64,000 nucleotides of DNA, taken from contig NC_012965.1 in the NCBI RefSeq assembly GCF_000027005.1, positions 1,289,001 to 1,353,000 of the forward strand, given 5' to 3'. The translations under genes and the position numbers were made by a program. The notes below the pieces were generated by a model, which was given only the letters and a program-made list of their open reading frames with translations, did no database searches and was not told the DNA's origin. This DNA comes from Komagataella phaffii GS115. Lineage: Eukaryota > Ascomycota > Pichiomycetes > Pichiales > Pichiaceae. This document shows, one piece after another, positions 26,534 to 29,175 of the stretch. Each line of letters starts with the position of its first letter. Within the stretch, counting starts at the first letter, position 1.

Positions 26534-26899
26534 CTATTTAACTTCATACTCCTTCTTTTCCCTAAAGAAAGAAAAAAAGTCTCTGATAATATCGAGAGTC
26601 ACTGGTATATCAGCATTTTTAAGTTCCTTCTTGACCCTATCCATAGCTGTTCGAATATCTGAATCGGCAACCAGCAGCAATTGTTGTTGCATGGAAAGGT
26701 CCGGCCCGCCGAGAATACCCTTTTCGGCCAATACTAGTGAGGTTTCATTGAGAGCTTTGTAAACTGATGGGTTCTTGTGTACTTTGTAGAAAAATTCAAC
26801 GGCGTTTCGATCCGCATCGGAGGTGATTGAAGCTTTCCTAATGGCCAAAACAGTTCTCAAAGTCCTTGTTGAGGAGATGCTGGAGCGGAGAAGAGACAT
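26534..26899 (-). CDS. Small predicted mitochondrial protein, unidentified
   Basis: Starting at the Met at 26899 gives 121 residues. They open with a Ser/Arg-rich, acid-free stretch (MSLLRSSISSTRTLRTVLAIRK) typical of a mitochondrial presequence. The rest is helical and charged (ADRNAVEFFYKVHKNPSVYKAL, ILGGPDLSMQQQLLL). The frame is open to 27019, but the upstream part looks like promoter. It converges with SEC28, stops 35 bp apart. I do not recognise the family. Confidence 0.6.
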   Translation of the reverse strand: MSLLRSSISSTRTLRTVLAIRKASITSDADRNAVEFFYKVHKNPSVYKALNETSLVLAEKGILGGPDLSMQQQLLLVADSDIRTAMDRVKKELKNADIPVTLDIIRDFFSFFREKKEYEVK

Positions 26900-27318
26900 G
26901 AGTAAAGATGGAACTGTAAGGCCCAGGTGTTTTACGTGGAAACCAGAGATGAGCCTGGTTAGACGTTGAATGATTGTGCAATAAGGCAGTTCGATTAGGC
27001 ACAGCACAGAGATAACCAAGCATCGTGACCAGAATAATACATCTCTACACCATGCCCACCAGTGATCGGGGATTCATACCGGATTAACCTTTGGAATGAA
27101 TGTCTTTAAAGAGCTAACAAGTATCGTAGACCAGCAAATCACAAATATACTATCCATATTTAGAGTAATTTAAGCACTGTACGTTTGGTTACCAAACTAT
27201 AACAAAAAAGTTAAAACGAAAAGCTGAAGTGCGGGAAGTTTTAGCAAACTCCCCTTAAGGAACCACTTAATCTTTGGATAAGGTGGACGATTAGGTTTCA
27301 CCTTCGTAATTGCATAAT
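26900..27318. other. Intergenic region between the mitochondrial-type gene and the bacterial-type pair
   Basis: No gene is seen. The left half is upstream sequence of the gene at 26534. The right half (about 27150-27318) is A/T-rich and precedes the stop of the Hsp31-like ORF, so one junction of the presumed insertion should lie here. No flanking repeat or transposon end is visible. Confidence 0.4.
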
Positions 27319-28008
27319 TTATTGCTTCAGTTGTTCCATTACCACTTTCGCAATTTCTTTTGAACTGAATGGGTTCTGTCCTGTGATTAAGTTCCCGTCC
27401 ACGACCACTTTTGACGTCATTGGGATAAAAGCTTTCTCGTATTTTGAAGTTTTTTTATTCAATTCTGCTTCAAGGTTGAACGGTACTTCTTTTCTGCGTC
27501 CTGCTATAGCTTCTTCAAACCAATTAAATCCTGTAATGGCCTTGTCTTTGATTAGATACTCGCCATCAGACAGTTTTACGTTCAAAAGCCCACAAACTCC
27601 GTGACATACAGCGGCAACAATTTTGCCCGCCTCATAGTGTTCTTTGATGATGTTTTGTAAAACAGTGTTGTTCGGAAAGTCATACATTGTTCCGTGTCCA
27701 CCTGCCAAATAAACAACGTCAAACTGTTGTCCTGTGACTTCACCCAAACTTTTTGTGTTTTGCAACAACTTCATAAAGTCTTGGTTTGTCTCATAATCCT
27801 TTGAAAGCTTGTCAATCAGCATTGATTTCAAGCTTTCAGGGTCAAGCGGAATGTTTCCGCCTTGCGGACTCGCAATCGTCACATCATAGCCGTTCTCTTT
27901 TGCACTATGATACATATGTGTCAACTCACTTAACCACAAGCCTGTTGGCAGCTTTCCGCTTTCATACTTAGCAACACTGGTAACTACAATCAAAATTTGC
28001 ACAGTCAT
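27319..28008 (-). CDS. DJ-1/PfpI (Hsp31-like) protein of bacterial type
   Basis: The 229-residue protein has the Hsp31-like class I amidotransferase fold. It shows E28 in TGLWLSELTHMY, ASPQGG, the GGHG loop (103-106) and the nucleophile elbow AAVCHG with C135-H136. Relatives act as glyoxalase III, deglycase-like or chaperone proteins. The sequence style and use of CCG, GGC and AGC codons look bacterial rather than like the neighbours. Its ATG overlaps the TGA of the upstream SDR gene by ATGA, an arrangement normal in bacterial operons and rare for yeast nuclear genes. Bacteroidetes origin is my guess. No intron or targeting signal is seen. Confidence 0.88.
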   Translation of the reverse strand: MTVQILIVVTSVAKYESGKLPTGLWLSELTHMYHSAKENGYDVTIASPQGGNIPLDPESLKSMLIDKLSKDYETNQDFMKLLQNTKSLGEVTGQQFDVVYLAGGHGTMYDFPNNTVLQNIIKEHYEAGKIVAAVCHGVCGLLNVKLSDGEYLIKDKAITGFNWFEEAIAGRRKEVPFNLEAELNKKTSKYEKAFIPMTSKVVVDGNLITGQNPFSSKEIAKVVMEQLKQ

Positions 28009-28946
28009 AGTTCTTGTTCGTTTTTTTGTTCGTTCAAAATATTAGTAATGCCTTCCGGAAAAGTTGTAACTTTAAATTCGGGAAATCTTTGCTTAAATTT
28101 ATCGGAAACAAAAATGTTATCTGCATTGTATCGCGGTAGGAGTTCCTGCAACTCTTTTGCTTGCTTGCTGAAGAAACTGGCTAATCTAAAAAAGAACATC
28201 TTTATAACGGAATAACTGTACTCTTTTTGGGAAATTTCTGAAGCAAGATCTATCAATTCTTTGTAGGTAAGCCTGTTGTCATCACAAGGCAGGTGCCACG
28301 TTTGGTCGAACGCATCGGGTGTATTACCGATTAGCGCCATCGCACGACTTGCATCAGGGGTAAAAATTAAGGTTCGTTTTGTATTGTCGTTGAGTGGAAC
28401 TTTCAGCTTTTTGCCCTGTTTGATATTGTCAAAAATCAACGTGTTGGTTATGCTTTGTGTTTTTCCTGTGCCATAAAACTCGGGTGCTCTGCAAATAACC
28501 GCTTCAATGCTTTTATTCTTTATTTCGTCTAGTAACATTGTTGCCATTTTTGCCCTCACGGTTGATTTTTGTCCAGCAGGCACAAACGGACTTTCTTCCG
28601 TTTGCGGTTCACTAGTTTTAGCATACATATAGGTATTGTCAAAAAACACCAACTTGCATTTATTTTTCTTACAGGCTTCAATTACGTTTTTCATCATAGT
28701 TGGAAATTGTTCTATCCACAGTTGAGAGTCCATTGGTAAACCTACAGTCAAGTAAGCTATCTCGCTACCTGCAACCGCTTCTTCCGTAGCTTGTAGGTCT
28801 AGTAAGTTTGCAGGGAAGAGTTGGTCGGTGTCATTCACTTTCTTAGGATTTCTGCTTACCAACCTGATGTCAGTCGTATAATTTCTATGCAGTTCCCTTG
28901 CTAATTCTTCAGCTATTTGTCCGTTTGCCCCAAGTATCGTCTGCAT
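28005..28946 (-). CDS. Atypical SDR / NAD(P)-binding epimerase-like protein of bacterial type
   Basis: The 313-residue protein starts with a Rossmann glycine loop (MQTILGANGQIAEELA), has the second strand LVSRNPKKV, and continues in the NmrA/extended-SDR manner (VFFDNTYMYAK, APEFYG, TWHLPCDD). The usual YxxxK catalytic pair is not evident; the corresponding helix reads KSTVRAKMA. It could therefore be a non-catalytic NAD(P)-binding protein or one with a changed mechanism. The stop overlaps the next gene's ATG (ATGA). It is divergent from a phosphoglycerate mutase-like yeast gene, across 229 bp. Substrate unknown. Confidence 0.87.
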   Translation of the reverse strand: MQTILGANGQIAEELARELHRNYTTDIRLVSRNPKKVNDTDQLFPANLLDLQATEEAVAGSEIAYLTVGLPMDSQLWIEQFPTMMKNVIEACKKNKCKLVFFDNTYMYAKTSEPQTEESPFVPAGQKSTVRAKMATMLLDEIKNKSIEAVICRAPEFYGTGKTQSITNTLIFDNIKQGKKLKVPLNDNTKRTLIFTPDASRAMALIGNTPDAFDQTWHLPCDDNRLTYKELIDLASEISQKEYSYSVIKMFFFRLASFFSKQAKELQELLPRYNADNIFVSDKFKQRFPEFKVTTFPEGITNILNEQKNEQEL

Positions 28947-29175
28947 ATTTATGTCTATAACTTATTGATAGGTTATTAAGTTTGGATGAAATTCACTTCA
29001 CATTTTCGTTTCTCATAGTAATTTTTCGCTAGCTCTCACACCCCCACTGGAATCTGCAGCCCGTGGAACCGGATGATTCCCGCACCCCCGGACAGGAAGC
29101 GTCCCCTATAACTCCGTTGATATACCCATCCTATTCCTCATTTCTGCGGACTTCTGCTAGCAAAGCAAAATATAT

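Follow-up and report, generated by a model that had tools for sequence, protein, structure and literature searches.

Bacterial operons have been transferred into yeasts before. The enterobactin (siderophore) operon of yeasts of the Wickerhamiella/Starmerella clade was transferred as a unit (Kominek 2019, as described in excerpts of PMC13376923 and PMC11952965), and thiamine-salvage operons likewise passed horizontally from bacteria to yeasts of that clade (Goncalves and Goncalves 2019, as described in an excerpt of PMC13376923). The question of how a transferred operon becomes activated has been approached with a lac-type polycistron in Saccharomyces cerevisiae (Sun, Bock and Li 2025, excerpt of PMC11952965), and according to the same excerpt the operon transfers into yeasts that it cites have in no case retained their polycistronic structure. 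A further precedent is found in Glarea lozoyensis, whose IGG1/IGG6 bicistrons carry two long ORFs on one fungal transcript, with expression by reinitiation and a reporter version assayed in Pichia pastoris (excerpt of PMC10352335).

Here we describe a pair of genes in Komagataella phaffii that keeps the polycistronic layout at the DNA level, operon transfer into yeasts being itself already known. Our literature search returned no paper naming this locus; supplementary lists of horizontally transferred genes lay outside its scope, and the genes may already figure there as candidates. In a review of K. phaffii, horizontal transfer appears only in the title of a reference (PMC8709784). A locus with its bacterial stop-start overlap preserved, in an industrial yeast amenable to genetics, offers a direct way of asking how a second cistron is first handled by a eukaryote.

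Locus and genomic setting

The whole stretch analysed, hereafter the window, comprises 64,000 nucleotides of a 2,245,428-bp contig of the K. phaffii genome (9,216,378 bp in four contigs), and all positions given are those of the window. ORF1 and ORF2 both lie on the minus strand with intact frames (Table 1), and the ATGA overlap between them, already proposed in a first-pass annotation made from the sequence, was recovered at the same coordinates in the ORF list and in the sequence. A scan of same-strand neighbours, covering arrangements from a 20 nt overlap to a 50-nt gap, identified ORF1 and ORF2 as the sole overlapping same-strand pair among the 42 ATG-initiated ORFs of at least 150 aa in the window, two other pairs being separated by gaps of 22 and 35 nt.

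Table 1. Positions of the gene pair and of associated elements in the window.
Feature	Position	Strand	Description
ORF1	28005..28946	-	313 aa, atypical extended SDR (Rossmann, epimerase-like), Bacteroidota origin
ORF2	27319..28008	-	229 aa, DJ-1/PfpI, Hsp31-like, Bacteroidota origin
ATGA overlap	28005..28008	-	ORF2 start codon shares bases with the ORF1 stop TGA
Divergent intergenic region, 229 bp	28947..29175	-	Between ORF1 and the phosphoglycerate-mutase-type gene; presumed captured ORF1 promoter
TATAAA within ORF1	28201..28206	-	198 nt upstream of the ORF2 ATG; possible, weak internal promoter element
TACTAAT, yeast branch-point-like	28041..28047	-	39 nt before the ORF2 ATG, CAAG downstream; probably chance
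Region 3' of ORF2, 419 bp	26900..27318	-	Presumed ORF2 3' UTR/terminator and promoter of the 121-aa gene
Downstream neighbour, 121-aa gene	26534..26899	-	Without Pfam match

The flanking genes are of yeast type on both sides, as had been claimed at first: those relatives of a neighbouring bHLH protein that carry an organism name are fungal, the nearest named one being from Komagataella pastoris (97%), and the Pfam analysis of the other neighbours revealed a histidine-phosphatase/phosphoglycerate-mutase-type protein and a protein with a sub-threshold zinc-finger match. In blastn comparisons with 50 bacterial loci, neither side of the pair gave a significant match: the best E was 0.18 for the region 5' of ORF1, set against the flanks of those loci, and 0.029, over 36 nt, for the region 3' of ORF2. 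A bacterial leader before ORF1 was also considered, as 20 nt there (AGACATAAA) resemble some bacterial leaders; over ten loci, 59-992 of 1000 shuffled sequences matched its score. Since shuffles reach the score of this leader and the blastn comparisons of the flanks gave E values of at least 0.029, we make no claim of bacterial DNA beyond the two ORFs.

Bacterial relatives and origin of the pair

Protein searches returned 4076 relatives of ORF2 and 6834 of ORF1, and the best 120 of each, yeast copy included, were used. Among the matches listed (119 non-self per protein), no eukaryote is present in the rows that carry an organism name, which are a minority; in particular, the best hits in other yeasts that the first-pass annotation had named as the evidence against its reading are absent from these named rows. 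For both proteins, the best named matches listed are Bacteroidota at 83-84% identity (Flavipsychrobacter, Bacteroidetes, Chitinophagaceae, Bacteroidia) and the top identity among the matches listed is 84-85%; the best listed homologues of ORF1 are 83-85% identical and belong to Bacteroidota where named, and the nine best of ORF2 display 82-85% identity. Each row gives the length of its longest contig, and 20 of these lengths recur in both lists; with the same size in bp taken as the same contig, the nearest relatives of ORF1 and ORF2 seem frequently to share a contig. A contig of 813,604 bp is shared by P0002 and P0140, both Flavipsychrobacter.

Trees were built from 120 rows each, consisting of the yeast copy and its 119 nearest listed relatives, most of them without organism name. 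The yeast ORF2 falls inside a 27-row clade (SH-aLRT 99), nearest to P0003/P0002, and ORF1 is nearest to P0123 in a weakly supported placement. Among the matches listed, both yeast proteins nest in bacterial, not fungal, diversity. The ORF2 protein cluster has 3 members. There is a hint that K. pastoris is devoid of ORF1, given that its bHLH match at 97% is present, the ORF1 cluster is single-member, and no named Komagataella row was found. Regarding possible vehicles, relatives of ORF1 were detected in 15 plasmid records (best 63%) and of ORF2 in 40 (best 61%), none of them a near donor, and the search for a phage vector returned a single match, a Listeria phage record (1942 bases, 56%).

The gene order of the yeast pair, with the DJ-1 gene directly after the SDR gene, was found in five bacterial loci, namely L002 and L003 (Chitinophagaceae), L004 (Bacteroidia), and L025 and L032, taken from a genome sample of one family; L023 and L048 repeat the L003 pair, and L049 repeats that of L025. 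The 4-nt ATGA overlap is present in 4 of these 5 loci (L003, L004, L025 and L032), and in L002 the SDR frame ends earlier, leaving a 13-nt gap before the DJ-1 start and no overlap. By eye, small indels are the only difference between the yeast junction and the bacterial ones. Since the same overlap occurs in four of the five directly adjacent bacterial loci, the yeast ATGA overlap was most likely inherited from the bacterial operon.

Other arrangements were also observed. Two ORFs lie between the SDR and DJ-1 genes in L005, and in L030 and L036-L039 the DJ-1 gene is located about 1 kb beyond the SDR gene with another ORF between them, which is AraC-type in the three loci tested (L030, L036 and L039). 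The order is reversed, with the DJ-1 gene first, in L033, L034 and the Ligilactobacillus plasmid locus L044; L024 carries other sequence after the SDR gene, and both genes are broken in L009. Within the stretch examined, no DJ-1 relative was found in 16 (L006-L008, L010-L022) of one set of 21 loci. Among 394 genomes of one family, strong matches to the SDR (E<=1e-120) were detected in 16, to the DJ-1 protein (E<=1e-100) in 7, and to both in 5, a joint presence with P of about 1.1e-6; the two genes share one contig in 4 of those 5 genomes. Among 395 genomes of one class, 2 carried a strong ORF2 match (E<=1e-90), the L004 genome being missed there because its frame is broken. The SDR/DJ-1 combination is a patchy bacterial module that recurs as a pair.

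Codon usage was compared by means of a yeast-versus-Bacteroidota log-ratio per codon, which is 0.006 for ORF1 and 0.017 for ORF2. Both values are inside the range of 24 bacterial ORFs from L002-L005 (maximum 0.031), and none of the 37 yeast ORFs of the window used as reference is as low (minimum 0.048); GC3 (0.389 and 0.417) displays no difference from the host median of 0.390. The bacterial codon choice noted at first is right but mild, as CCG and GGC are raised in both ORFs and AGC in ORF1, and AGC hardly in ORF2 (2/14).

The DNA of ORF1 is 82% identical to both L002 and L003. Its identity at fourfold sites is 0.60 with L002 and 0.48-0.60 over L002-L005, L024 and L025, falling to 0.37 for L026 and 0.30 for L027, which are more distant; bacteria compared among themselves display 0.51-0.64 (four pairs). 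Pairwise dN/dS is 0.05-0.09 against L002-L005, L024 and L025. Fourfold-site identity is lower for ORF2 (0.35-0.48 with L002, L003, L005 and L025), these loci belonging to another subclade than the nearest protein relatives of ORF2. Codon amelioration, which would argue for selection on ORF2, was considered, and the synonymous changes found only in yeast are not host-directed: their mean log2 gain is -0.52 in ORF1 (n=8, expected -0.30) and -0.26 in ORF2 (n=10, expected -0.34). As the fourfold sites of ORF1 are as bacteria-like as those of bacteria among themselves and no host-directed codon drift is seen, the comparison suggests a recent transfer from an unsampled donor species, in agreement with the age first proposed. 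Because the transfer looks recent, intact frames alone are no proof of selection or use.

Taken together, the homology searches, the trees and the bacterial junctions support the joint Bacteroidota operon transfer, with order and overlap kept, that had been proposed from the sequence. We assign a probability of about 0.93 to the reading that a Bacteroidota operon was transferred as one piece with both frames intact, from a Chitinophagaceae/Flavipsychrobacter-like donor whose exact identity is unsampled (best protein identity 85%); this value refers to origin and intactness, not to the mechanism of translation. The two-gene operon would have entered the Komagataella chromosome in one stretch, inserting between two yeast genes in divergent orientation.

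The two proteins and their putative function

The identities first assigned to the pair, an SDR and a DJ-1/Hsp31-like protein, were upheld by Pfam matches above their cut-offs: PF01370 (58.6 bits, cut-off 20.9) and PF13460 for ORF1, and PF01965 (72.6 bits, cut-off 26.6) and PF17124 for ORF2. The best listed bacterial homologues cover 98-100% of ORF1 and ORF2; both are therefore free of introns, as had been stated before, and also of N-terminal extensions.

In agreement with an extended SDR, ORF1 combines a Rossmann NAD(P)-binding domain (PF01370) with the corresponding fold, as seen in the comparison of its AlphaFold model (mean pLDDT 81) with the PDB, where the 50 best matches are mostly NAD-dependent nucleotide-sugar epimerases/dehydratases and L-threonine dehydrogenase. 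These matches, at 12-16% identity, name no substrate. The GxxGxxG motif was not found in ORF1, where GANGQIA reads GxxGxxA, with G6, G9 and A12 invariant in 38 rows. The first-pass annotation had seen no evident YxxxK; the letters do occur three times, at 106 (YMYAK), 158 (YGTGK) and 245 (YSVIK); in the 38 rows, Y106, Y158 and K162 are invariant, and the conservation of K110 and of K249 is 90% or higher. That remark was too simple, but none of the three falls in the modelled helix 126-143, where we would presume the catalytic motif to lie from the general SDR layout. We regard ORF1 as a putative NAD(P)-binding oxidoreductase.

ORF2 keeps E28, C135 and H136 invariant in 41 aligned rows, in alignment with Hsp31 and Glx3, and we take these residues to be the Glu, the nucleophilic Cys and the His of the Hsp31 active site. 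In the comparison with the PDB, the ORF2 model (mean pLDDT 87) reaches query TM values of 0.85-0.90 against two fungal proteins, Hsp31 of S. cerevisiae and the glyoxalase III of Candida albicans, which have its fold and the aligned Glu-Cys-His in common with it. Their identity to ORF2 is only about 29-34%, the best PDB matches, bacterial 4p5p and 1u9c, are closer (38-39%), and the Bacteroidota proteins are far closer. Against the HchA/glyoxalase III equivalog NF003168, ORF2 scored 54.3 bits, below the curated cut-off of 365. In the whole yeast genome, ORF2 was the sole match, both in a PF01965 profile search and with Hsp31 as query; the search can be regarded as working, since the tool used did detect other families in this genome, with three Glo1-type matches and several of SDR type. 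A very divergent or intron-split native DJ-1 gene could escape such a search.

Bacterial neighbourhoods offer further clues. An aldehyde dehydrogenase is found in L030 and L038, an old-yellow-enzyme-type protein in L032, and AraC regulators in L030, L033, L036 and L039; in addition, L004 carries DoxX, a flavodoxin-fold protein and two cyclic-nucleotide-binding regulators, and L044 an ArsR regulator. The remaining neighbours are uninformative (a hydrolase in L034, a hexapeptide transferase in L051, GNAT in L005, DUF3788 in L003 and DUF1648 in L002). The Glu-Cys-His of ORF2 and the aldehyde dehydrogenase, old-yellow-enzyme-type and AraC neighbours fit the idea of a carbonyl/aldehyde defence, and the pair probably acts in carbonyl/electrophile defence, ORF2 being a putative Hsp31-type glyoxalase/deglycase. 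K. phaffii, where these searches revealed no second DJ-1/Hsp31 gene, may rely on a bacterial enzyme for the DJ-1/Hsp31 job, which would matter for how a production host grown on methanol deals with stress and carbonyls.

Expression of the second gene and comparison with known systems

With 229 bp between the ORF1 start and the divergent mutase-type gene, a captured promoter beside that gene may plausibly drive ORF1, and the transcript would run on through ORF2. Our leading guess, a tentative one that we hold at somewhat under even odds, is that ORF2 would then be made by termination-reinitiation at the AUGA junction. AUGA is listed as a stop-start geometry for coupled reinitiation in an excerpt of a review, which also calls reinitiation after long ORFs presumably very rare (PMC5972666), and in P. 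pastoris the second cistron of reporter bicistrons joined by the 9-bp IGG6 link is expressed (excerpt of PMC10352335). The known geometry together with the engineered bicistrons makes reinitiation plausible. Leaky scanning is unlikely, as 17 ATGs (that of ORF1 included) precede the ORF2 start, which has an A at -3. No TURBS-like element was found in the 150 nt before the junction when searching for TGGGA, which we take to be the TURBS core. The broader proposal that K. phaffii translates the operon as an operon, from one mRNA by AUGA reinitiation, and depends on ORF2 as its only Hsp31/DJ-1 enzyme, appears doubtful to us.

An internal promoter ranks only a little below reinitiation and is rather unlikely. 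ORF2 would by now be a monocistronic yeast gene, read from a shorter transcript that starts inside ORF1, with the overlap as a relic of the transferred pair. The TATAAA element within ORF1 could serve such a promoter, and the nearest ATG ahead of the ORF2 start is 118 nt away, leaving 115 ATG-free nt, so that a transcript starting after it would present the ORF2 ATG as its first AUG; moreover, in the yeast cases already described, operons became genes that are expressed one by one (excerpt of PMC11952965). However, 9 of 18 intact bacterial ORF1 homologues (the broken L017 left out) also contain TATAAA somewhere, 9 of 18 have, as in the yeast gene, at most one ATG in the last 118 nt, and the junction departs from the bacterial ones by no more than the indels described above.

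A silent or nearly silent ORF2, persisting only because the transfer is recent while ORF1 may be expressed, is less likely still. Second cistrons are normally untranslated in yeast, and in the experimental S. cerevisiae operon the second and third remained so until selection was applied (excerpt of PMC11952965). The lack of codon amelioration and the near-bacterial fourfold sites of ORF1 are consistent with little or no translation, and so are the relatively many nonsynonymous yeast-only changes of ORF2: at codons unanimous in four bacterial relatives, there are 12 nonsynonymous to 10 synonymous, a ratio higher than in those relatives (0.00-0.60), which makes a relaxed constraint on ORF2 possible. 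On the other hand, no yeast deviation was found at the 75 columns conserved at 99% or more in the relatives of ORF2 (0/87 in ORF1), and 2 were found at the 109 conserved at 95% or more (1/143 in ORF1); as the sole DJ-1 family gene found in the genome, ORF2 could also be needed. Expression through splicing, which would make the ORF2 ATG the first one, is very improbable: TACTAAT is present, no GTAAGT, GTATGT or GTACGT donor was found between the mutase gene and ORF2, and TACTAAT-like motifs occur within 60 nt of the ATG in 2 of the 42 window ORFs, ORF2 included.

Two alternatives to the transfer of the operon as one piece are weaker than all of these. Bacterial-like genes in eukaryotes are often contamination, and a contaminated or chimaeric assembly could have put bacterial DNA into the yeast contig. 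Nevertheless, the ORF2 protein is reported in 12 contigs and that of ORF1 in 9, the longest of 2,260,675 and 2,264,935 bp, sizes that differ from the 2,245,428 bp of the contig analysed here. The block therefore seems to be present in other assemblies, whose independence we infer from the differing sizes. As both proteins are found in contigs longer than this one, and with yeast-type genes on both sides and two flanks without significant similarity to the 50 bacterial loci, contamination is extremely improbable. K. phaffii GS115 and the wild type have also been sequenced, with a check for contaminating reads, in a study whose assemblies may be among these contigs (Love et al. 2016, excerpt of PMC4974788). 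Equally negligible is a chance landing of two separate transfers side by side, for which it speaks that the ORF1 and ORF2 trees disagree on the single nearest bacterium, since order and 4-nt overlap are identical to those of four bacterial loci and the tree positions are weakly resolved, with 54/117 and 61/116 inner branches open in the two trees.

The pair transferred as one operon can finally be set beside the systems already described. The enterobactin operon involves other genes and another host clade and is described as adapted to eukaryotic-style expression, whereas the K. phaffii pair has kept its overlap (excerpts of PMC13376923 and PMC11952965); the same differences in genes, host clade and mode of expression separate it from the thiamine-salvage transfers (excerpt of PMC13376923). 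Those earlier cases are stated to have ended as rearranged genes with single expression (excerpt of PMC11952965); the arrangement seen in K. phaffii differs, as the 4-nt overlap persists. The lac-type polycistron of S. cerevisiae was engineered with three yeast markers, in contrast to this natural locus with its stop-start overlap (excerpt of PMC11952965), and the IGG1/IGG6 bicistrons have a 9-bp linker and a filamentous fungus as source, in contrast to the ATGA overlap of the K. phaffii pair (excerpt of PMC10352335). Should the operon indeed be translated as one in K. phaffii, with reinitiation at the inherited AUGA, no earlier case would be known of a transferred bacterial operon functioning in a eukaryote through its original junction.

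Relatives of the SDR/DJ-1 pair in bacteria

In Legionella bozemanae the SDR/DJ-1 pair is present as a broken copy, with 61-71% identity measured over its longer pieces; this copy is another sign that the module moves among distant bacteria. On a Ligilactobacillus acidipiscis plasmid of stingless-bee source, the gene order is reversed, and the successive overlaps of the three-gene row are 4 nt and 1 nt. The genes lying within the operon of a Flavobacteriia genome (L005) suggest, by their position between DJ-1 and SDR, that they arrived by insertion.

Coordinates of the features
Feature	Location	Strand	Source or position
Broken SDR/DJ-1 pair	L009:4001-5548		Legionella bozemanae
DJ-1 and SDR genes with GNAT acetyltransferase and 101-aa ORF between	L005:4001-6571		Flavobacteriia genome
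ArsR regulator, DJ-1 gene, SDR gene, consecutive	L044:2992-4936		Ligilactobacillus acidipiscis plasmid
TACTAAT, yeast branch-point lookalike	window 28041-28047	-	close to ORF1 (SDR) end

Branch-point lookalike in the yeast copy

The TACTAAT motif was not present in the bacterial junctions compared, and no matching donor was found in a search for splice donors.

DJ-1/Hsp31 complement of the yeast

Apart from ORF2 (the Hsp31-like gene of the pair), a whole-genome search of the yeast using PF01965 and an Hsp31 query found no DJ-1/PfpI or Hsp31-like genes. Saccharomyces cerevisiae is described as possessing Hsp31-34 (PMC4605529); a native DJ-1/Hsp31-like gene may have been lost in the yeast studied here, with the bacterial ORF2 as its replacement.
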